Source: Desulfobacteraceae bacterium
GTDB lineage: Bacteria; Desulfobacterota; Desulfobacteria; Desulfobacterales; JAABTS01
Direction of reading: 5' to 3'
DNA: 49,722 bases
NCBI GenBank assembly: GCA_011389735.1
Contig: JAABTS010000019.1
Location: forward strand, 1-49,722
Shown here: piece by piece, positions 10,531-49,114 of the stretch
Numbering within the stretch: the first letter of the stretch is position 1
Layout of the letters: each line of letters starts with the position of its first letter
The notes under the pieces: model-generated
What the model was told of the DNA's origin: nothing
What the model saw: the letters and a program-made list of their open reading frames with translations, nothing else
Database searches by the model: none
Position numbers and translations under genes: made by a program

Positions 10531-11739
10531 ATGATCGGAATATCCAAACTATACTGCGGAACAGTCGAAGCCTCCGACGCGCTTCGATACGGAAGAGAAT
10601 CTTCCAGGCTTCCGTCGCATTTATTACAGTTTTCAAAAGATAAACGACCGGTGATCGTCTGGAATATCACTCAGCGATGCAACCTCAAATGCGTCCATTG
10701 TTACGCTCGATCCGAAGACATCTCATACACCGACGAACTTGACACCGAACAGGGCAAGGCGGTTCTTGACGATCTGGCCCAATTCGGAGTTCCGGTCATT
10801 CTGTTTTCAGGGGGGGAACCTCTGGTTCGCAAAGACCTTCCTGAACTGGCGGCTTATGCTGTTCAAAAAGGGATGCGGGCGGTCATTTCAACCAACGGTA
10901 CGCTGATCAACCCCGCAATAGCGTCTGTTTTCAAAGATATCGGCCTGTCTTACGTGGGGATCAGTCTGGACGGCATGGAAACGGTAAACGACCGTTTCCG
11001 AGGGGTTTCCGGAGCCTTTGCGAAGGCGATGGAGGGGATTGAAAGCTGCCGGGCCGCGGGAATAAAAGTCGGGCTTCGATTTACAATCAACAAGTTTAAT
11101 TGGAAAGAAATTCCGAAAATTTTTGATTTATTGGAAGAAAAAGAGATACCGAGGGTCTGTTTTTATCATCTCGTTTACGCAGGGCGCGGATCGAAGCTGG
11201 TGTCCGAGGATCTGGCCCATGAAGAAACCCGAGAGGCCGTGGATATGATTATCGACCGCACCCGGGATCTTCATGAACGCGGAAAGCCCAAGGAAGTTTT
11301 AACGGTGGACAATCATGCGGACGGCCCGTATTTATATTTGAAGCTGCTGGAGGAAGGTTCGGACCGGGCGTCCGAAGTATTGGAGCTGCTTCGGATGAAC
11401 GAAGGCAATAATTCCGGCCGGGGAATCGGATGTATCAGTTGGAACGGGGATGTTCACGCGGATCAGTTCTGGCGCCATAAATGTTTTGGAAATGTCAAAG
11501 ATCGTCCGTTTTCGGAAATCTGGACCGGCGACGGCGACCCGTTGCTCAAGATGCTGAAAGAGAAAAAAAAGCATGTCAAGGGCAGGTGCGCCGAATGCGC
11601 ATGGCTGGATGTTTGCGGCGGCAATTTCAGGGTTCGCGCGGAAGCCGTCCATGGAGACGTATGGGCGCCTGACCCAGCCTGTTATTTAACTGATGAGGAA
11701 ATCTCCCGATCCCGGTTTTCGCATATTATGGAAAAATGA
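10531..11739 (+). CDS. ahbC: Radical SAM heme-biosynthesis enzyme, AhbC-like (12,18-didecarboxysiroheme deacetylase)
   Basis: 402 residues opening MIGISKLYCGTVEASDALRY, the conserved start I associate with AhbC/NirJ2 proteins. The radical SAM cysteines are C50, C54, C57 (RCNLKCVHC); FSGGEPL binds SAM. A C-terminal SPASM-like cysteine region is visible (GCISWNGDVHADQFW, KCFGNV, CAECAWLDVCGG, DPACY), consistent with an auxiliary 4Fe-4S cluster. AhbC removes two acetate side chains of didecarboxysiroheme, and AhbD then makes heme, in sulfate reducers and methanogens. hemB lies about 180 bases downstream, supporting a tetrapyrrole role. AhbD is the main alternative, but the N-terminus favours AhbC. 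Confidence 0.82.
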   Translation: MIGISKLYCGTVEASDALRYGRESSRLPSHLLQFSKDKRPVIVWNITQRCNLKCVHCYARSEDISYTDELDTEQGKAVLDDLAQFGVPVILFSGGEPLVRKDLPELAAYAVQKGMRAVISTNGTLINPAIASVFKDIGLSYVGISLDGMETVNDRFRGVSGAFAKAMEGIESCRAAGIKVGLRFTINKFNWKEIPKIFDLLEEKEIPRVCFYHLVYAGRGSKLVSEDLAHEETREAVDMIIDRTRDLHERGKPKEVLTVDNHADGPYLYLKLLEEGSDRASEVLELLRMNEGNNSGRGIGCISWNGDVHADQFWRHKCFGNVKDRPFSEIWTGDGDPLLKMLKEKKKHVKGRCAECAWLDVCGGNFRVRAEAVHGDVWAPDPACYLTDEEISRSRFSHIMEK

Positions 11740-40230: not shown

Positions 40231-41730
40231 TCAGGGGTTATCGACCGGAAGCAGAACCGTGAATGTAGATCCCATGCCCGGGGCGCTTTCCACATCAATA
40301 AATCCGCCCAGTGAATCCACCAGACCTTTCACGATCGGCAGACCCAGCCCCGTGCCGGTGATATAACGGGTGTTTTCGTTTTTTACACGGTAAAAGCGTT
40401 CAAATATTTTTTCGAGATACCTGGCTTCAATTCCGAACCCGTTGTCCACAACCTTGACACGGACGTTGACTCCCGCCATATCCACGATTACCCGGATTTC
40501 CCCGCCTTCCTGAGTATAATTGACGGCGTTCGCAATCAGGTTCCCGAATATGCTTTCCAGCGCCAGCGGATCAGCCGTCAATTCCGGGATGGGATCAGGC
40601 GGAAGGTTCAAGGTGAGAGTCTGCTGTTTGGCGGCGGCCCTGGATTCCATAAAATTGACAATGCCGCTCAACAACCCGCCGATGTCAACGGGCCTGGGTT
40701 CGTGACAAATAGCGCCTTCCTCGATACGGGACAGATCCAGCAGATCCCCGATCAGGGATATCAACCCTTTTGTTTTTTCCCTGGCCTTGGACAAAAGACG
40801 ACGGTCGCCCACCGCTTTTTCCTCCCCGGCCATTTCTTTGATCACCACGGCAAGCTGCTCATGAATCGTGGACAAAGGCGAACGGAGTTCATGGGAGACT
40901 TTGGCGACAAAATCCGATTTCATCTGATCCAGCATTCTCAGATGGGTGATATCGGTCATATTGACCACCGCCCCCAAACATTCCCGTTTTTCGCCCAGCA
41001 CCGGCTGCCCCTTCGCCAGTATAAATTTTTTGCCGCCGGAAATGGAAAATTCGTGATCCGGAATGTCATCGAAATCAACATGCCGGCCTCGCGAGATTTC
41101 CAGAATCAGCTTACAAAGCTCGGAATCAGGGATATAGTCTTCAATCCGGCCTTCGGACACGGCGTCCGAATCGATCTCGAGCAATTGAATCAGCGCGGGA
41201 TTGGTAAGAACCACCTCCCCTTTTGTATTGGTCACGATCACCCCGTTGGGAAGAGATTCGACTACCGTGCGCACCCGGCTTTTCTCCGTGTCCAGATCCA
41301 GCAGAGTGCGCTGGCGTTCCTGTTTCAGCTTCTCGGCTTGCCGGCCCAGCCGAATTTTATCGGCCGCCCGGTTGACCACGATCCTCAGATGATCCGGCTC
41401 AAAAGGTTTTGAAATAAAATCGTACGCCCCTTCTTTCATGGCCTGGATCGCCGTTTCCACCGTGGCGTATCCCGTAACCACGATAACATGGATATCGGGT
41501 TTTAACCGGCGGATAATCGGCAGAACGTCCATCCCCTCGATACCCGGCATCTTTAAATCCAAAAGCACAATGTGAACATCCGCATCCTCGAGAGTCTGCA
41601 ATGCGTCATCACCCCTGGAAGCCAATAAAACTTCGAATCCGAGCCGACTGAGAATCCGTTCCGATCCCTCCCGAATGTTCCGTTCGTCGTCGACGACCAA
41701 TACCCGAATCATATCGGACTCACGATTCAT
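40231..41730 (-). CDS. Histidine kinase with N-terminal receiver and PAS domain
   Basis: 499 residues. Receiver 1-125 (VLVVDDERN, D58 in IVLLDLKMPGIEG, DFISKPFEPD), a coiled coil (KLKQERQRTLLDLDTEKS), PAS (VVESLPNGVIVTNTKGEVVL), HisKA with KVSHELRSPLSTIHEQ, and HATPase with NLIANAVNYT, KVVDNGFGIE and GTGLGLPIV. Soluble. Start ATG 41730 overlaps the stop of the preceding kinase by ATGA, so the two are translationally coupled and probably one phosphorelay: the upstream kinase may phosphorylate this receiver. An ATG six codons later is also possible. Confidence 0.92.
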   Translation of the reverse strand: MNRESDMIRVLVVDDERNIREGSERILSRLGFEVLLASRGDDALQTLEDADVHIVLLDLKMPGIEGMDVLPIIRRLKPDIHVIVVTGYATVETAIQAMKEGAYDFISKPFEPDHLRIVVNRAADKIRLGRQAEKLKQERQRTLLDLDTEKSRVRTVVESLPNGVIVTNTKGEVVLTNPALIQLLEIDSDAVSEGRIEDYIPDSELCKLILEISRGRHVDFDDIPDHEFSISGGKKFILAKGQPVLGEKRECLGAVVNMTDITHLRMLDQMKSDFVAKVSHELRSPLSTIHEQLAVVIKEMAGEEKAVGDRRLLSKAREKTKGLISLIGDLLDLSRIEEGAICHEPRPVDIGGLLSGIVNFMESRAAAKQQTLTLNLPPDPIPELTADPLALESIFGNLIANAVNYTQEGGEIRVIVDMAGVNVRVKVVDNGFGIEARYLEKIFERFYRVKNENTRYITGTGLGLPIVKGLVDSLGGFIDVESAPGMGSTFTVLLPVDNP

Positions 41731-43211
41731 AACTCCGTCCTTTCATTTTCTTCGCCGGTCTTCAAGGGAATCTCGATGGTGAACGAAGCGCCCCCATCCG
41801 GATTGTTCTCAGCATTGACGGTTCCCCCGTGATTCTTGATAATGCTGTACGCCAGGCTCAACCCCAGGCCCGTGCCCTCCCCTTCCTCTTTCGTCGTATA
41901 AAAAGGATCGAAAATATGCGGAAGCTTATCATCGGGAATTCCCGCCCCCGTGTCCATTATCCTGATGAAAACACGCTCGGAATCTCTCGTCAAACCGCTT
42001 TCCAGCGTCAACACTCCCCGGCCTTCCATGGCCTGAGCCGCATTGAGAATAATATTCATGAAAACATGGTTCAATTGCTGAATATCCGCGCTGATTTTGG
42101 GAAGCGTAGGCGAAAGCTCTTTTTTGATCTCGATATTGTGAAACAAAACCTGGTCTTTGACCAGAAAAAGCGTTCTCGAAACGGCTTCGTTGATATCGCA
42201 AGGCTGCTTTAAATAACGGGTCTGGCGAGTGAATTCCAGAAGTTCTTTGACCGTCTCCCGGCATCGCTCGGCGTCTTTCAAAATCCGGTTCAAATCCTCC
42301 TCGATATTTTCAGCCAGCTCGTTCTCTTCCAAAATAAGCTTTGTAAAAAGGGTGATCCCTCCCAGCGGGTTGTTGATCTGATGCGCCACTCCCGCAGCCA
42401 GCTTGCCCAAAGAGGCCATCTTTTCCGCCTGAAGAAGCTGAAGCCTGGTCTGATCCAGCTTATCCTTCATCTCGATTTCATCCCGCAAATCATGGAAAAA
42501 TCCGATGGTCGCGACTTCCTCCCCGTCCTCATAAATAATCGTCGCATTCAACAAAATAGGTATCGCTTCACCGTTTTTGGCGACTCCGTCGACCTGAAGC
42601 TGTCTGAGTTTCCCCTTACCCCCGTATTCGTCGCTTCTCAGCTTCCGCATGACTTCATAGGCGACCCCTTCAGGATAAATGTCCCTGATATTCAAGGAAT
42701 CCAGAGCCTCATCCGAGCTGTACCCGAATACTTTCGACGCCATGTCGTTATAAATGAGAATGTTTCCCTTCCGGTCCGCCGCGATCACGCAATCCACGGC
42801 GTTTAAAATCAAATTTTTCAAAAATGCGTTGGTGCGCTGAAATTTTTCCTCCAGCCCGCTGTTGATCGGAAGATCGAAATCCACGCTTACATAAGATACG
42901 ATATGGTTCTGATCATATATCGGATACGCATAATAGCAGGGAATGCGATGTTTTTGAAATATATCGGCCGGTTTGGGCCTGAGCGACGCCTTGCTTTTGG
43001 TTTGCGCCTCCACCACCGCGCAATTATCGCAGGGCGACGGCCTGCCCCAAAACACCTCATGGCAATACCTGCCGATAATGGACGAACCATGTAATTTCTT
43101 TACCTTGTAGTTTGCCGCGATGATCTCGAAATCCGGGCTGACCACAATCAACCGGCCGACAAATTCGTCAATAGCTTTCAATAAATATTGCTTTTCGGTG
43201 TCGTTATGCAT
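41727..43211 (-). CDS. PAS-domain histidine kinase with cysteine-rich sensor motif
   Basis: 494 residues, no membrane helices. The first PAS-like domain (about 10-120) contains C50-x10-C61-x2-C64 (RYCHEVFWGRPSPCDNC), a pattern that could hold a metal, Fe-S cluster or redox-active thiols. A second PAS follows (about 130-260: NAVDCVIAADRKGNILIYND), then HisKA with AAGVAHQINNPLGGI and HATPase with NIILNAAQAM, RIMDTGAGIPDD and GTGLGLSLAYSIIKNHGG. Probably a cytoplasmic redox or small-molecule sensor. Coupled to the downstream receiver-kinase. Confidence 0.92.
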   Translation of the reverse strand: MHNDTEKQYLLKAIDEFVGRLIVVSPDFEIIAANYKVKKLHGSSIIGRYCHEVFWGRPSPCDNCAVVEAQTKSKASLRPKPADIFQKHRIPCYYAYPIYDQNHIVSYVSVDFDLPINSGLEEKFQRTNAFLKNLILNAVDCVIAADRKGNILIYNDMASKVFGYSSDEALDSLNIRDIYPEGVAYEVMRKLRSDEYGGKGKLRQLQVDGVAKNGEAIPILLNATIIYEDGEEVATIGFFHDLRDEIEMKDKLDQTRLQLLQAEKMASLGKLAAGVAHQINNPLGGITLFTKLILEENELAENIEEDLNRILKDAERCRETVKELLEFTRQTRYLKQPCDINEAVSRTLFLVKDQVLFHNIEIKKELSPTLPKISADIQQLNHVFMNIILNAAQAMEGRGVLTLESGLTRDSERVFIRIMDTGAGIPDDKLPHIFDPFYTTKEEGEGTGLGLSLAYSIIKNHGGTVNAENNPDGGASFTIEIPLKTGEENERTEL

Positions 43212-43519: not shown

Positions 43520-43576
43520 TGTTGAATGCTAAATGGGGGACTCACATTCAACATAACAACATTCAACATATATCAA
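43520..43576. repeat. Heptamer repeat D, second locus
   Basis: gttgaatgctaaatggggga ctcacattcaacat is a near-identical reverse complement of the core at about 6645-6681, followed by acattcaacat units. The last codons and TGA stop of the adjacent kinase gene lie inside this repeat. Confidence 0.8.
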
Positions 43577-45251
43577 GAGGAATCGTCCAATAAAACACGG
43601 ACCCTTCGCCGTCGACGCTATCCACCCAAATCCGGCCCCCGTGGGCTTCAACGATTTTTTTACAGATCATAAGCCCCAGCCCGGTACTCGGTTCGCCCGC
43701 TGTAGGTTTCACGCTGGTTTTGGAAAACGGCTGGAACAGTTTCGGAAGTTCCGATTCCGGGACGCCCTGGCCCTGGTCGGCCACGGACACCAATAACCGG
43801 CCGTCCGCCTGCAATTCCGTTTGAATCCGGACGACGGTTCCTGAATGGGAATATTTGACGGCGTTGCTGATCAAATTGGACATCACCTGCTTTATTTTCG
43901 ATTTGTCGATCGCCACCTCTTGCGAATCTATCTTTGACGTATAAACCACGGAGATATTTTTCGGTTCAGACAAATAATTGCTTTCTTCGATACACCGTTC
44001 GATGAGCTTTGAAATATTGGCCGGCCGCCTGTCCAGGATCAGATTGCCGGACTCGATTTTGGAGACGTCAAGCAGGTTGGAAACCATGTTCAACGCATTG
44101 TAAATTACGGACTTCCCCATTTGCATCAGTTCCTGTTCACTTGTATCCAGCCTGCCTGCAAGGGATTTGGACAGCATTCTGAGCAGGCTGAGAACGCCGC
44201 TCAACGGGTTCCTGATGTCATGGGCGGCGATGGCCAGCATCCGGTTTTTTCTTTCGTTCAATTCTCTGGCCTGTTCCACGTCGTGATAGAGCAATAAATT
44301 ATGAAGCGCCGCGGCGCATTGATTGGCCAGGATATGGATCAATTTCAAATCGGCGTCGCTGGTGAGGCTCGTATCTTCGATATAAATGCATCCAATCACG
44401 TTTTCGCCGGTTTTGAGGGGAATCAAAAGCGATTTTTCCGGAAGCTTGTTTTCAGGTTCGAACAGAGCGCCGACAATCGGGGTCATTTCATCTTTGCTGA
44501 TACTTTCCTTAAATCGGCCTGTTCCGGCTCGTATTTCCATTTTGGATTCATTTTCGGTAATGGCCAAAAAACTGTCGGTCGTAGAAATCATATTGTTGTT
44601 GCCGATGTTGCAAAGCCCGATGATTTGGAACAGCACGCCTTCCAGGAATTCCTGCATCGGCTGCAAACGGTAGAGCTTGGGAGCGGCGTTTAGGATTTTT
44701 TCGAGCCCCAGGCGGTTGCGCTGTATGATGCAAATATCACGGTAGGCCTTGATCGCGGACCGAAGGGCCGTATGAAGTTTCCGGGCCGTCAATTCGGTCT
44801 TGTCCTTGTAGTCGTCTATATCGTAGCGCTCGATAACATACCGTTCAGGCGCCACGCCGGGCTGTCCGGTTCGGATGATCAATCGAACCACATGATTGCC
44901 AAGAGAGTTTCGAATGTAATCCACCAGATCCAGACCGGCGTTTTCCGTTTCCATGACCACATCGATCAAGGCCGCCGCAATGTCCCGGTTCTCTTCGAAA
45001 ACCAGTTTCGCCTCTTCGGCGCTCTTTGCATGGAAAAATCGAATCCCCTTGCCTCCGAATTTAAAATGCTTGAGGCTGATGGTAGTGATGGAATGAACAT
45101 CCGGTTCGTCATCGACAACGAGAACCTTCCATGACGGCGAATCCTGGATGCAAAAATCGTTACTCCATTTGATCGAATCCCACATATCGTTCGAAAGCGC
45201 CGACGGCTCGATCTCACCGGGGCTTTTTTTATTCCTGCGTATCAACTTCAT
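43563..45251 (-). CDS. Receiver-DUF3369-GAF histidine kinase
   Basis: 562 residues from ATG 45251, chosen because AGGAGG lies 6 bases upstream. Receiver at about 40-165 (VLVVDDEPDV, D97 in AALIDVVMETENAG), continuing into the DUF3369-type segment RTGQPGVAPERYVIERYDID and DYKDKTELTARKLHTALRSA, a GAF-like region (about 220-330), HisKA with AIAAHDIRNPLSGVLSLLRM, and HATPase with NLISNAVKYS, VADQGQGVP and STGLGLMICKKIVEAHGG. Soluble. It overlaps the preceding kinase by 23 bases and closes the four-gene operon that begins at 49087. The stop codon falls in repeat D. Confidence 0.92.
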   Translation of the reverse strand: MKLIRRNKKSPGEIEPSALSNDMWDSIKWSNDFCIQDSPSWKVLVVDDEPDVHSITTISLKHFKFGGKGIRFFHAKSAEEAKLVFEENRDIAAALIDVVMETENAGLDLVDYIRNSLGNHVVRLIIRTGQPGVAPERYVIERYDIDDYKDKTELTARKLHTALRSAIKAYRDICIIQRNRLGLEKILNAAPKLYRLQPMQEFLEGVLFQIIGLCNIGNNNMISTTDSFLAITENESKMEIRAGTGRFKESISKDEMTPIVGALFEPENKLPEKSLLIPLKTGENVIGCIYIEDTSLTSDADLKLIHILANQCAAALHNLLLYHDVEQARELNERKNRMLAIAAHDIRNPLSGVLSLLRMLSKSLAGRLDTSEQELMQMGKSVIYNALNMVSNLLDVSKIESGNLILDRRPANISKLIERCIEESNYLSEPKNISVVYTSKIDSQEVAIDKSKIKQVMSNLISNAVKYSHSGTVVRIQTELQADGRLLVSVADQGQGVPESELPKLFQPFSKTSVKPTAGEPSTGLGLMICKKIVEAHGGRIWVDSVDGEGSVFYWTIPLDIC

Positions 45252-46647
45252 CGCCATCCTCCTGAAACGCCCGATCAACCGGGAATTCGATACGAAAAAG
45301 CACGCCCTCGCCGGGCCTGCCCTCACATTCAATGGAACCGTTCAACCGTGATGTAACCAGGTTGTAACAGATATACATCCCCAATCCGGTTCCGCCTTTT
45401 CCTCTGCGGCTCGTAAAAAAAGGTTCGAACAGGTGTTCAAGGGTTTCTTCGTCCATGCCCGCGCCGTTGTCGGAATATTCCAGAAGAATCCGGCCGCCGG
45501 TTCTAGCCGCCCTGATTCGAATTTCTCCTGCGCCGGCGCCGTCGTTGAACCCATAAACGTAACTGTTCATCAGGAGGTTGGTGAGAATCTGGCCGATAAT
45601 CCCCGGATAGCCGTAAATATTCAGCCGTTCCGGACAATCCGTGCGAATATCGATCCGGGTGTTTTTAAATCGGTTGTTGAGACTTAAAACAATATCGTTT
45701 ATGACTTCCGGAAGCCCGAACAACCTTTCCGTTTCAGACGTCTGATCAATCGAGGTTCTTTTGAAAGACGCCACCATATCCGCGGCGCGCTGAAGATTGG
45801 CCAGCAACAGCCGGGATGCGTCCCGGATGGTTTCCAGATGATCGACCAGCTCGTCTTCGTCAGCTTCATCTCCTTCCAGCATATGCGTAATCGCTTCCTG
45901 AGCGTCGTTCAGACTCGAGGACGCCGTCACCGCAATTCCAATCGGAGTGTTGATTTCATGAGCGAAACCGGCCACCATACGCCCCAGGGACGCCATTTTT
46001 TCGTTTTGAATCAGAGTGGTTCGAGTCCGTTCCAGTTCCTCGATAGCTTGGTTCAAGGATTCGTTGAGCGCAATCAGCTCCTCTTTTTGTTCCTCGAGCA
46101 GTTGGTTGGCCTGCTCGAGCTGGACGTTTTTTTTCGAAACCGACCGTTGCGCCGTTTCCAGCTCGTGGTATAAACGGGTCAATTCTTCAAAATATTTACG
46201 CTCCGTTGCATTCCGATTCAATAATTTCGGCAGATCCATGTCCGATATCACATTAAGCGCGGCGGATCGCATATCGTCTTTTCCCACGAGTTCAAAGCAG
46301 ACAGCGGATATTTCGGAAAGATTTTCCGAGCCGAAAACGAGGATGTCGTCGCCGGTTACAACTCCGAAAAAGTGGATCACACGTCGTTCCTCCCCCGCTA
46401 AAACCAAGCATAATTCCCAATTGTAAGCTTTTCCGGCCTTTTTGGTTTCCTTGAAAAAATTCATCGCTTTTCCGGCGTTATCCGTATCAAAAGCGAGCAT
46501 AAACGGACGCTCCGGCTTCAATCGTTCGGACATACCGATATGGTCGATGACGTATCGGCGGATAATTCCTCTATAATCGCATAAAAAAGCGATCCCGCCT
46601 GTTTTTGCTGTGTCGTCGGTCATAAAAAAAGGGGTTTTCGAACTCAC
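45229..46647 (-). CDS. Histidine kinase with PAS-like N-terminus
   Basis: 472 residues from GTG 46647; ATG 46623 is the alternative, and neither has a strong ribosome site. N-terminal PAS-like sensor (about 15-125: GIAFLCDYRGIIRRYVID, WELCLVLAGEERRVIHFFGV), a long coiled coil (about 150-215), HisKA with MVAGFAHEINTPIGIAVTAS, and HATPase with NLLMNSYVYGF, YSDNGAGMDEE and GGTGLGMYICYNLV. No membrane helices. It lies 11 bases after the B12-binding protein gene and overlaps the receiver-kinase that follows, suggesting that it relays the signal of the B12 protein to that receiver. Confidence 0.9.
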   Translation of the reverse strand: MSSKTPFFMTDDTAKTGGIAFLCDYRGIIRRYVIDHIGMSERLKPERPFMLAFDTDNAGKAMNFFKETKKAGKAYNWELCLVLAGEERRVIHFFGVVTGDDILVFGSENLSEISAVCFELVGKDDMRSAALNVISDMDLPKLLNRNATERKYFEELTRLYHELETAQRSVSKKNVQLEQANQLLEEQKEELIALNESLNQAIEELERTRTTLIQNEKMASLGRMVAGFAHEINTPIGIAVTASSSLNDAQEAITHMLEGDEADEDELVDHLETIRDASRLLLANLQRAADMVASFKRTSIDQTSETERLFGLPEVINDIVLSLNNRFKNTRIDIRTDCPERLNIYGYPGIIGQILTNLLMNSYVYGFNDGAGAGEIRIRAARTGGRILLEYSDNGAGMDEETLEHLFEPFFTSRRGKGGTGLGMYICYNLVTSRLNGSIECEGRPGEGVLFRIEFPVDRAFQEDGDEVDTQE

Positions 46648-46658
46648 CTTAAACGGAG

Positions 46659-47723
46659 TTAATCAATTTGCTTTACCAGCGATTTTGCGGTTTCCAAAGC
46701 TTCGGCGGCGTTTGACGCTGTTCCGTCCGCTCCGATTTCTTTATAAAAATCCGGGTGCTTCAAAAACATATACCCTCCGACGATAATTTTCAAGTTTTTC
46801 GGAATTGTTCTCGAGCCGCGCAGCTCATTGACCAGTTTTTCGACCGCGCTGCGATGAAAACTCATGGTGCAAGAAATTCCCAGAATATCCGCCTTGTTCC
46901 GGCCCGCGGCTTCGATAATTCCGGACGCGGGAGCGTTGGCGCCCAGATAAACGGTGTCCCATCCGTCAGCTTCAAAAAAATCCGCAACCATGCGAGCCCC
47001 TATCTGATGCAACTCCCCGCCCACGCATCCGCCGACATAAGTTCGGCCGATACGGCGAGTACTGAAAATTTCGGGATACAATTGAGACATGATCCGCTCG
47101 GTCACGGCGGAACAATAGTGTTCCTGAGCCACGCTCACTTCGCCTGAATGCCAGAGCCGGCCGATTTCATACTGGGACGCCTGAAACACGTGAAGATAAA
47201 TATCCTGCACAGGCGCGCCGCTCTCGACCGCATCGAAAATCACTTTTTCAGCCTCCCGGCGGTTTCCCTTCAACAGACACCCCAGATATTTTGCGGCCAG
47301 CTCCCCGTGCGGGTTTTCTTTTAAAATATACGGCGTCTCCTTCCGGGACGGTTCGAAATATTTCCGCAAGGCCGCTTCAATGTATTCGGAGGTCTTTGCG
47401 GACATGTCTTCGGGGAGTCGCTCCGTCAGGACGTCCCTCATACATTCGAGCGTCACGGGCAAAACCGAATCGGGAAAGTCGAGCCCCGAAAACAAATCTT
47501 TCAGCCAGATCGTATAGTTGATAAACATTTGCGGCGATTCCGCGGATATGGCCTCTTTCAAATACACCAGATGGTGCTTTACGTCCCGGATGCTCAGTTC
47601 CCTGCCCTTTTCCCCGTATTTTTCCCAAATTTCCGGCTGAACGGCGTATTGCCGGGCCACAGCCGTTTCAGCGATACTCTGGGCGTTTTTTTCGATAACA
47701 AATTCAACGCTGTCCATGCTCAT
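46659..47723 (-). CDS. B12-binding protein with CarH-type photoreceptor signature
   Basis: 354 residues from ATG 47723, with GGAGG 7 bases upstream. Residues about 1-125 form an all-helical domain I do not recognise (IWEKYGEKGRELSIRDVKHH, FINYTIWLKDLFSGL); there is no MerR DNA-binding domain. A helical B12 cap (about 140-215) carries W191, H192, V198, E201 and H202 in LWHSGEVSVAQEH, which is the W-x9-E-H arrangement plus the light-state histidine known from Thermus CarH. The Rossmann domain has GELHQIGARMV with H239 as lower cobalt ligand, then DGWDTVYLGANAP and VGGYMF. This points to an adenosylcobalamin light sensor or B12 sensor. Its neighbours are a HemW-like radical SAM gene (2-base gap) and two kinases, so output is likely by phosphorelay. 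Confidence 0.88.
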   Translation of the reverse strand: MSMDSVEFVIEKNAQSIAETAVARQYAVQPEIWEKYGEKGRELSIRDVKHHLVYLKEAISAESPQMFINYTIWLKDLFSGLDFPDSVLPVTLECMRDVLTERLPEDMSAKTSEYIEAALRKYFEPSRKETPYILKENPHGELAAKYLGCLLKGNRREAEKVIFDAVESGAPVQDIYLHVFQASQYEIGRLWHSGEVSVAQEHYCSAVTERIMSQLYPEIFSTRRIGRTYVGGCVGGELHQIGARMVADFFEADGWDTVYLGANAPASGIIEAAGRNKADILGISCTMSFHRSAVEKLVNELRGSRTIPKNLKIIVGGYMFLKHPDFYKEIGADGTASNAAEALETAKSLVKQID

Positions 47724-47725
47724 CT

Positions 47726-49087
47726 CTATTCCTCCGGTGTGTTTGCGATTGATTGGGCGATGGCCTCGCTGATCCATGCGCTGATGTTCCCGGCCCAAAA
47801 ACGGCCGGTTTCCGTCAATTTCAATGCGCCGTCCCGCTCTTCGACAAGACCCGCGCCGATCAGATCCGGCACGGCGCGATCCATTTCAGGAGCCGAACCC
47901 CGAACCGCCTCCATGTCGACACCACTGCCTTCGCTCAATTGGCGCCATCTTCGGGATCGAACATACGGTTCCGGTAATTTCAAAACGGCAAGCCCCTGAT
48001 CGCAGCCCGCCGCCTGACCCGCCAGGTAAGCCTCAGCTTGAACCGGGTTCATTGCAAGCGTGGTTCCAAGCATACTCGCAGCCCCCTGGCCCATACCCAG
48101 TATATCCCATCGGCGGCTTCGAGCCCTCGCGTAAACCGCCCGGTCAACCGACGGATCGGCGTATTGAACCGGCGAGTAAGCCTCCCATCCAATAACCTCC
48201 GTCAAATATTCTTCCGCCAACCGGCGCGCCTCGTATTCCTTTCTCAAATCCGCCGGCGAATCCGTCCCGCTCTTCCGAATCCCTTTCGACAATATGGCGT
48301 TTTCGAAAAAAATGAGCGGATACACGCTGCATCCGCTTGCAGGCGAATCCTGGAGCCGTTTTAAATCCTCCCTCTGAATTTCCCCGGTCTGCCCGGGCAA
48401 TCCGTACATGAGATCTATACAGATATTTTCAACGCCCTCCGATCTCGTCCGTTCCAAAATTTCGATCATGGTTCGACCATCGGCCGTCCGCCCCAAAGAC
48501 CGCCGCAGATCCGTGTCGAAACTCTGAACCCCGAAGCTCATCCGATTGACCCCGGCCTCCGCCAATTGTTTTACATAATCGCCGCCCACCGTTTGAAAAC
48601 GAGATTCCACCGTGATTTCACAATCCGCATCCACGATAAAAGCAGACCGGACAGCCTCCAGAATCCCCGTCAAAAGATCCGGACTCAACACGGTCGGTGT
48701 CCCGCCCCCGATATAAACCGCTCTGAAAGGCGCCGCTCCCGCCCAGGCGGTTCGCCCCCAACGAAAAATCTGCTTTTTCAAAGCGTCCGCATAAGCGCTC
48801 GTTTCCGTATCGCCCGATGAAACACTCCGGATATAGCCGCAAAACGAACAAATAGCCGGACAAAACGGAATATGAATGTAGATCGCGCGACCTTCCGGCG
48901 ATTCCCCGCCATCCGGCCTATCGATCACCCAATTCCCGGAATGCGGAATCACCGCCTTCCCGTACGGCAACGCCGCCCTGGCCTCTCTCGGATTCCGTAT
49001 CCGCCGGTCCAACAACGACCACGGAGGCCGGCCTTCCGCCTTTCTCCGGCGTGCCTCACGGATCTCGTTTTTAAATGTTGTTTTCAT
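47726..49087 (-). CDS. HemW/HemN-like radical SAM protein
   Basis: 453 residues from ATG 49087 (AGGAA upstream); seven earlier codons are open. After a basic 65-residue N-terminal extension, the radical SAM core begins IYIHIPFCPAICSFCGY with cluster cysteines C76, C80 and C83, followed by VYIGGGTPTVLSPDLL, ITVESRFQTV, GVNRMSFGVQSFDTDLRRSLGR and CIDLMYGLPGQT, all typical of the coproporphyrinogen oxidase-like/HemW family. The C-terminus has a winged-helix-like HemN domain. Biochemical role undetermined: HemW members bind heme and others act on porphyrins. It starts the operon with the CarH-like protein, so it may handle a tetrapyrrole or corrinoid for that sensor. Repeat B copy 3 lies just upstream. 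Confidence 0.85.
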   Translation of the reverse strand: MKTTFKNEIREARRRKAEGRPPWSLLDRRIRNPREARAALPYGKAVIPHSGNWVIDRPDGGESPEGRAIYIHIPFCPAICSFCGYIRSVSSGDTETSAYADALKKQIFRWGRTAWAGAAPFRAVYIGGGTPTVLSPDLLTGILEAVRSAFIVDADCEITVESRFQTVGGDYVKQLAEAGVNRMSFGVQSFDTDLRRSLGRTADGRTMIEILERTRSEGVENICIDLMYGLPGQTGEIQREDLKRLQDSPASGCSVYPLIFFENAILSKGIRKSGTDSPADLRKEYEARRLAEEYLTEVIGWEAYSPVQYADPSVDRAVYARARSRRWDILGMGQGAASMLGTTLAMNPVQAEAYLAGQAAGCDQGLAVLKLPEPYVRSRRWRQLSEGSGVDMEAVRGSAPEMDRAVPDLIGAGLVEERDGALKLTETGRFWAGNISAWISEAIAQSIANTPEE

Positions 49088-49114
49088 CTTTATTCCTTTG
49101 CCAATCATTTTTTG

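Follow-up and report, generated by a model that had tools for sequence, protein, structure and literature searches.

The stretch of DNA analysed here, hereafter the window (49,722 nucleotides, contig JAABTS010000019.1 of assembly GCA_011389735.1, Desulfobacteraceae bacterium), carries an operon-like group of four genes in which a cobalamin (B12)-binding protein stands between a radical S-adenosylmethionine (SAM) protein and two histidine kinases (HK1 and HK2). The source genome consists of 6.5 Mb in 477 contigs, with a completeness of 96.9%, and its host is probably an anaerobe, judging from its kinship with the Thermodesulfobacteriota that neighbour its B12 protein in the tree. The four open reading frames (ORFs) are all on the minus strand, radical SAM at 49108-47726, B12 protein at 47723-46659, HK1 at 46647-45229 and HK2 at 45251-43563, and follow each other with a 2-base gap, an 11-base gap and a 23-base overlap, the packing given in a preliminary description of this DNA. 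Their features are as follows.

47726..49108, minus strand: radical SAM protein, predicted sister of HutW/ChuW, 460 residues, possible internal start at 49087 (TIGR04107, 266 bits; tree)
48839..48862, minus strand: radical SAM protein, [4Fe-4S]-binding cysteines C83-x3-C87-x2-C90 (among the columns that photocobilin-linked, HutW and HemW-type sequences have in common)
46659..47723, minus strand: putative photocobilin (globin-B12 protein), 354 residues (Pfam PF00502, PF02607 and PF02310)
47367..47699, minus strand: phycobilisome-like globin domain of bilin-binding type, residues 9-119 (PF00502, 31.1 bits; profile A3)
47583..47594, minus strand: S44-I45-R46-D47, matching the CxRD motif of phycobiliproteins, with D47 at the place of SasPcob Asp270 (alignment)
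47079..47294, minus strand: B12-binding helical bundle PF02607, residues 144-215 (Pfam)
47118..47153, minus strand: W191-x9-E201-H202, adenosylcobalamin (AdoCbl) photoreceptor motif (invariant in 80/80)
46695..47036, minus strand: B12-binding Rossmann domain PF02310, residues 230-343 (Pfam)
47007..47009, minus strand: H239, predicted lower axial cobalt ligand, His108 in SasPcob (80/80; alignment to PDB sequences)
45229..46647, minus strand: HK1, PAS-like N-terminus, linker and HisKA/HATPase, 472 residues, GTG start (HATPase, 80.9 bits)
46327..46593, minus strand: input domain of HK1, PAS-like and without a Pfam family (AlphaFold2 (AF2) and Foldseek)
43563..45251, minus strand: HK2, REC-like, DUF3369 (GAF-like), HisKA and HATPase domains, 562 residues (Pfam)

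Domains and residues of the B12 protein

Sequence comparison identifies the B12 protein as a photocobilin with the domain order globin-B12. Its residues 9-119 match the Phycobilisome family PF00502 with 31.1 bits for a cut-off of 22.2, and PF02607 and PF02310 are also above their cut-offs. The N-terminal part, previously taken for an unrecognised helical domain, is thus a globin of the phycobilisome type, which led us to reject a CarH with an unknown replacement of its DNA-binding domain; that the protein has no DNA-binding domain of its own, such as the MerR-type one of CarH, was borne out by the Pfam scan, which gave no such match. In the PDB, the best match of the profile of 49 N-terminal domains (A3), at 1.8e-8, is to allophycocyanin; phycocyanin chains and the globin of the photocobilin SasPcob (8J2W, residues 228-318, 3.2e-6) are retrieved as well. 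Among six related proteins PF00502 passes the cut-off in three, falls just below it in one and has no match in two.

Conservation was assessed on the best 80 of 202 relatives from a species-genome collection, ranked by likeness to A1, a sample biased toward the window in which many rows are metagenome-assembled genomes (MAGs) and several loci have flanks cut by contig ends. The 80 aligned proteins are that of the window and those of 79 loci, L048 being left out for its broken frame; 67 of these rows form A2, and the globin set A3 and the set of HK1 N-termini (A4) hold 49 and 50. Loci L046, L048 and L116 are contigs of the genomes G018, G031 and G039, and the pairs L062/L079 and L095/L119 each share a genome.

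The top PDB sequence matches of the whole protein are the photocobilins 8J2Y and 8J2W. Alignment pairs W191 with Trp61 of SasPcob, E201/H202 with Glu71/His72, H239 with His108, D47 with Asp270 and W73 with Trp296, a pairing that rests on an offset of 6 between the chain index and the numbering of PMC10979010, its globin segment being weak when taken alone. Asp270 is described as the main biliverdin contact of SasPcob and Trp296 as a further bilin-contacting residue (PMC10979010). W191, E201, H202, H239 and W73 are invariant across the 80 proteins, 78 of them have D47 and 77 have H51, D47 and W73 are found in all 49 rows of A3, and position 237, of the E/DxH motif, is Glu in 67 proteins and Asp in 13. 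The Arg at position 46, within the xRD clamp, varies with the gene found upstream (see below): it is present in 6/6 proteins linked to a radical SAM gene, in 6/6 linked to a heme oxygenase and in 0/17 linked to an ABM protein, the last having mostly Gln (13/17).

Counted from the ATG at 47723, W191, H192, V198, E201, H202 and H239 stand where the preliminary description had placed them, and the W-x9-E-H set, whose presence in orthologues was a check set beforehand, occurs in all 80. The AF2 model of the protein (predicted local distance difference test, pLDDT, 95.5) superposes on the photocobilin 8J2W over 208 residues of the B12 half (Z 26.7, 1.8 A), and an AdoCbl-photosensor core is upheld by both the residues and the model. 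VIA-align ranks photocobilins first, within 1 Z of each other, and in Foldseek the best E-value belongs to CtMerR (8JBS) rather than to a photocobilin; both comparisons cover mainly residues 135-354, and the globin fold is judged by the sequence profile. What did not hold as a conserved trait is the bis-histidine light state, position 192, the counterpart of His132 in TtCarH, being His in only 9 of the 80 proteins, that of the window included (Gln in 55, Leu in 12). SasPcob has a water/hydroxide-ligated light state, not a bis-His one (PMC10979010), and such a state is therefore the better expectation here. By analogy with the characterised photocobilins, the protein would bind AdoCbl and a bilin, and light would cleave its Co-C bond.

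Similar globin-B12 proteins were observed in Methanohalophilus (L092), a Lokiarchaeota MAG (L117) and three heliobacteria (L105-L107), with none of the three partner families described below found beside them.

The radical SAM protein and the other upstream partners

The lead gene had been called HemW-like. Its product has the CxxxCxxC cluster motif (C83, C87, C90), and its best NCBIfam match is HutW/ChuW (TIGR04107) with 266.2 bits, below the cut-off of 400; it reaches 156.5 bits with the HemW model TIGR00539 (cut-off 205.4) and 124 bits with HemN. TIGR04107 is also the best model for each of five Bacteroidota radical SAM proteins encoded beside photocobilins (241-292 bits). In a midpoint-rooted tree of 35 sequences, which left out dedicated HemN, HemZ and STM4012 reference rows, these five and the protein of the window form one clade (100/99) joining 14 HutW and four HutW-like rows, apart from the HemW-type group, which contains a second copy encoded elsewhere in the window's own genome (L127). 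Five residues, R202, G259, Y326, W438 and N441, are common to the six photocobilin-linked proteins and HutW and not to the 11 HemW-type rows, and E393 and F437 are HutW-like in five of the six; in place of the window's R202, G259, Y326 and E393, every one of the 11 HemW-type rows carries L, H, H and R. At other positions the protein of the window stands apart from HutW, with A344 and S345 in place of the usual Gly and with P264, W308, Q315 and Y316 different from the majority. A HemW identity of the lead gene is rejected by score, tree and most residues, with Ser345 as the exception, and the protein is, as placed by its sequence in the midpoint-rooted tree, a predicted sister of HutW/ChuW.

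A search for this clade in 395 Bacteroidota and 389 same-order genomes gave more than 600 bits only in the window's genome and in G068, all other matches at E<=1e-60 having 281 bits or less. One weak TIGR04107 match, in G237, was considered as a clade member and rejected, falling with the HemW-type rows in the tree. No radical SAM match at E<=1e-30 was found in the same-order relatives G018, G031 and G039, and in G042, of the same order, only a decayed remnant is left, directly upstream of the photocobilin gene (L023, 8781-9123).

Within 1.5 kb upstream of the photocobilin gene, 28 of the 80 loci have a member of one of three unrelated families, heme oxygenase in 6 (L046, L047, L049-L052), ABM proteins in 17 and HutW-like radical SAM proteins in 5, all Bacteroidota (L056, L058, L063, L075 and L087, that of L063 being on the other strand); two of the three at one locus occur in 0/80. 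The family PF03992 is confirmed in 10 of the 17 ABM proteins, the other 7 resting on our own profile, and two ORFs are partial, the ABM gene of L064 and the heme oxygenase gene of L046, PF01126 having no match in the genome of the latter. In the 48 genomes behind L046-L095, L073 not included, the radical SAM protein has five matches at E<=1e-40, all adjoining the photocobilin gene. Heme oxygenase is present in six of them, five times adjoining the photocobilin gene, the sixth genome (L080) having an ABM gene beside its photocobilin. Two controls were negative: none of the three families occurs near 21 locus entries with the B12 part only (16 distinct sites, flanks of about 1.5 kb in most), and 60 other HutW/HemW-type loci, a set with some repeated sites, lack a photocobilin in their vicinity.

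In the photocobilin tree, the nearest relatives of the window's photocobilin are Thermodesulfobacteriota, and it groups with the heme oxygenase-linked L046 and L047 (100/100); the radical SAM label requires at least two changes on this tree. A strict pairing of radical SAM protein and photocobilin was rejected, since most loci are without the former and two other partner types exist. In the window's genome, PF01126 heme oxygenase has no match at E<=1, ABM and other heme-degrading families not having been searched there. The same genome encodes AhbD, of O2-independent heme synthesis, on another contig (557 bits, over the cut-off), and a CobA/BtuR adenosyltransferase (196 bits, over the cut-off). 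A further radical SAM protein of the window, AhbD-like (10531-11739; 229 bits to TIGR04545, below cut-off), is separate from the AhbD of the genome.

Kinases downstream of the photocobilin

Both kinases have a HATPase domain, above the cut-off at 80.9 bits in HK1 and at 99.2 bits in HK2. The HisKA domain reaches 19.6 bits in HK1 (cut-off 26.9) and 41.7 bits, above the cut-off, in HK2, which also has DUF3369 (119 bits) and a REC match of 19.2 bits, below the Pfam cut-off of 30.2. The preliminary description was right about the two kinases and the REC-like and DUF3369 parts of HK2 and had their order reversed, HK2 starting with REC-DUF3369 and ending with HisKA-HATPase; the Pfam tables of both proteins list no membrane domain. 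The N-terminal domain of HK1 has no Pfam match in the window, and none is shared by more than two of the 50 members of A4. For its AF2 model (pLDDT 86), PAS domains come first among the Foldseek matches listed (best E 4.8e-5), and its PDB profile matches, a few unrelated or designed proteins, were taken as chance.

A kinase with an HK1-type N-terminus lies directly downstream of the photocobilin gene in 48 of the 80 loci, in agreement with the sensor-kinase coupling initially suggested. The gene order is not unique to this genome either: photocobilin, HK1 and HK2 (the DUF3369 kinase) recur in L073, L080 and L124, preceded there by an ABM gene, so that the window is in effect the same operon with its first gene exchanged. 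The operon points to kinases as photocobilin outputs, and light would be expected to act on them.

Two more minus-strand kinases, one containing PAS and one REC-PAS, are found about 350 bases after HK2 (40231-43211). A photoreceptor-kinase-KaiBC neighbourhood was also observed, with KaiB-like genes in 11/80 and KaiC-like genes in 10/80 loci at about 1.0-6.5 kb from the photocobilin gene (L054, L057, L063, L066, L071, L076, L077, L086, L100, L104 and L123), counts that stand without a background rate; KaiC-like genes lie downstream in 8 of 10 cases, and PF07689 and PF06745 are confirmed in L054 and L063.

Proposed function and known systems

From the computed domain identities, binding-residue conservation, B12-protein model, gene order in relatives and occurrence of three families in one position, we consider it fairly probable that the four genes form a photocobilin operon for signalling in an anaerobe: the radical SAM protein would provide a linear tetrapyrrole, and the PAS-like kinase and the REC-DUF3369 kinase would receive the light signal. 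A tetrapyrrole-related partner makes sense as a chromophore supply because the N-terminal domain is a globin of bilin type and the radical SAM protein a relative of heme-opening enzymes: the conversion of heme into a linear tetrapyrrole by HutW, ChuW and HmuW needs no O2 (PMC10035031, PMC10404700). The radical SAM protein is accordingly proposed as an O2-independent heme-ring opener, which would yield anaerobilin most likely, or a reduced relative; the product of this clade may differ from anaerobilin. In the globin, W73 and the S-I-R-D47 clamp would hold the bilin, and the W191/E201/H202/H239 core would keep AdoCbl next to it. As suggested by the published work on SasPcob and AbDPcob, light absorbed by AdoCbl, or transferred from the bilin, would break the Co-C bond, move the Glu-His helix and change the dimer, altering protein contacts. 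The gene order suggests that the PAS-like domain of HK1 would read this state and that a phosphorelay would continue through HK2.

Several observations weigh against this proposal. None of the three partner families is nearby in 52 of the 80 photocobilin loci, the radical SAM protein is absent at E<=1e-40 from 43 of the 48 genomes, and 8 of the 13 loci of the Bacteroidota photocobilin clade do not have it. Heme oxygenase is above the cut-off in 4 of 30 further genomes, in none of them seen near a photocobilin in the loci examined. With 266 bits the protein of the window falls short of the HutW cut-off of 400, and it has Ser345 as in HemW-type rows, where HutW and the five counterparts have Gly. 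Besides IsdG-type heme monooxygenases, the ABM family includes enzymes with substrates other than heme; one ABM protein was tested and had no NCBIfam match at E<=1e-12, and a role of these partners in heme conversion is predicted from their family. Our confidence is slightly lowered by Ser345 and by the uncertain heme role of ABM. The natural signal may, moreover, not be light. AdoCbl alone suffices for the green-light response of published photocobilins, and the bilin may therefore be dispensable.

The last point leads to the alternative that survives best, one we nevertheless regard as unlikely: the globin would be bilin-free, the protein would sense green light through AdoCbl only, or the level of B12, and the radical SAM protein would serve a heme turnover or iron release regulated by this sensor. 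The 52 loci devoid of partners fit it, as does the biliverdin occupancy of AbDPcob, only about 20% in a protein that is yet light-activated with AdoCbl (PMC10979010). The retention of D47 in 78/80 and of W73 in 80/80 proteins argues against it, and three unrelated families in one place fit the supply of one product better than a catabolic pathway.

An intact heme bound by the globin, with the radical SAM protein as a HemW-like chaperone and the whole as a redox or gas sensor joined to B12, is very improbable. H51 (77/80), the 156 bits to the HemW model and Ser345 speak for it, but the radical SAM protein groups with HutW and has R202, G259, Y326 and E393 against the L, H, H and R of the 11 HemW-type rows, the PDB relatives of the globin are bilin-binding proteins, and a heme-destroying oxygenase encoded next to this gene at other loci would be difficult to reconcile with it. 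Least probable of all is a radical SAM protein that makes no bilin but alters a tetrapyrrole or a different substrate in some other way, by methylation or decarboxylation as NocN or HemN do. This reading is in line with the two PDB sequences that match the radical SAM protein at E<=1e-5, HemN (1OLT) and the methyltransferase NocN (9P2U), and is countered by HutW being the best NCBIfam model for all six photocobilin-linked proteins and by the R202, G259, Y326, W438 and N441 that the six have in common with HutW.

Earlier publications already cover photocobilins, their alternative domain order and the occurrence of heme oxygenase together with B12 proteins and bilin globins; the new element is a predicted O2-independent enzyme in the heme oxygenase position. 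The literature searched, which left out Schneider 2022 and the supplementary neighbourhood tables of PMC10979010, gave no case of a photoreceptor whose bilin is supplied by a radical SAM enzyme, and anaerobilin was not found proposed as a photoreceptor chromophore in the portions consulted of publications naming both anaerobilin and photoreceptor. Heme oxygenase, the classical bilin source, needs O2, which raises the question of how anaerobes could make bilin photoreceptors. PMC10151467 draws attention to this conflict and, in the portions consulted, brings in ChuW only as a parallel in heme breakdown; the operon of the window and its five Bacteroidota counterparts are proposed as a concrete O2-independent route. 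We put forward only tentatively the wider view of a wholly O2-free bilin photoreceptor, in which a new HutW-like clade would make anaerobilin for the photocobilin, with heme oxygenase, ABM and radical SAM proteins as a threefold non-homologous replacement. If true, anaerobilin would gain a use beyond iron release, and a near-infrared B12 photoswitch is predicted because the absorption of HmuW-made anaerobilin lies at 445 and 795 nm (PMC10404700), which could extend B12 photochemistry to the near infrared in anoxic mats and sediments.

Among known systems, the photocobilins SasPcob and AbDPcob (PDB 8J2W/8J2X/8J2Y; PMC10979010) share with the window a globin and a B12 domain, the W-x-EH motif, the E/DxH lower ligand and the bilin-contacting Asp and Trp; the window differs in its globin-B12 order, separate neighbouring kinases and HutW-like enzyme upstream, an AdoCbl domain at either the N- or the C-terminus being already on record (PMC10979010, section 9). 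The anaerobilin synthases HutW/ChuW/HmuW (TIGR04107) have in common with the radical SAM protein the cluster, a sister-clade position and a number of residues, the C-terminal FWxxN element among them, whereas the protein of the window is below the family cut-off, lies beside a photoreceptor gene and differs at P264, W308, Q315, Y316, A344 and S345. CarH and CtMerR have the same AdoCbl-shielding Trp, Glu-His and lower His; the B12 protein differs from them by having no DNA-binding domain, a bis-His residue that is not conserved in its relatives and an extra globin of bilin type. Photoglobins (Schneider 2022) are reportedly a related globin-B12 system. Finally, the BBAG-2 globins are likewise bilin globins associated with a B12-binding protein and a heme oxygenase, but there the globin and B12 domain are separate and the route is that of heme oxygenase (PMC10151467), whereas in the window the two are fused and accompanied by a candidate O2-independent route.

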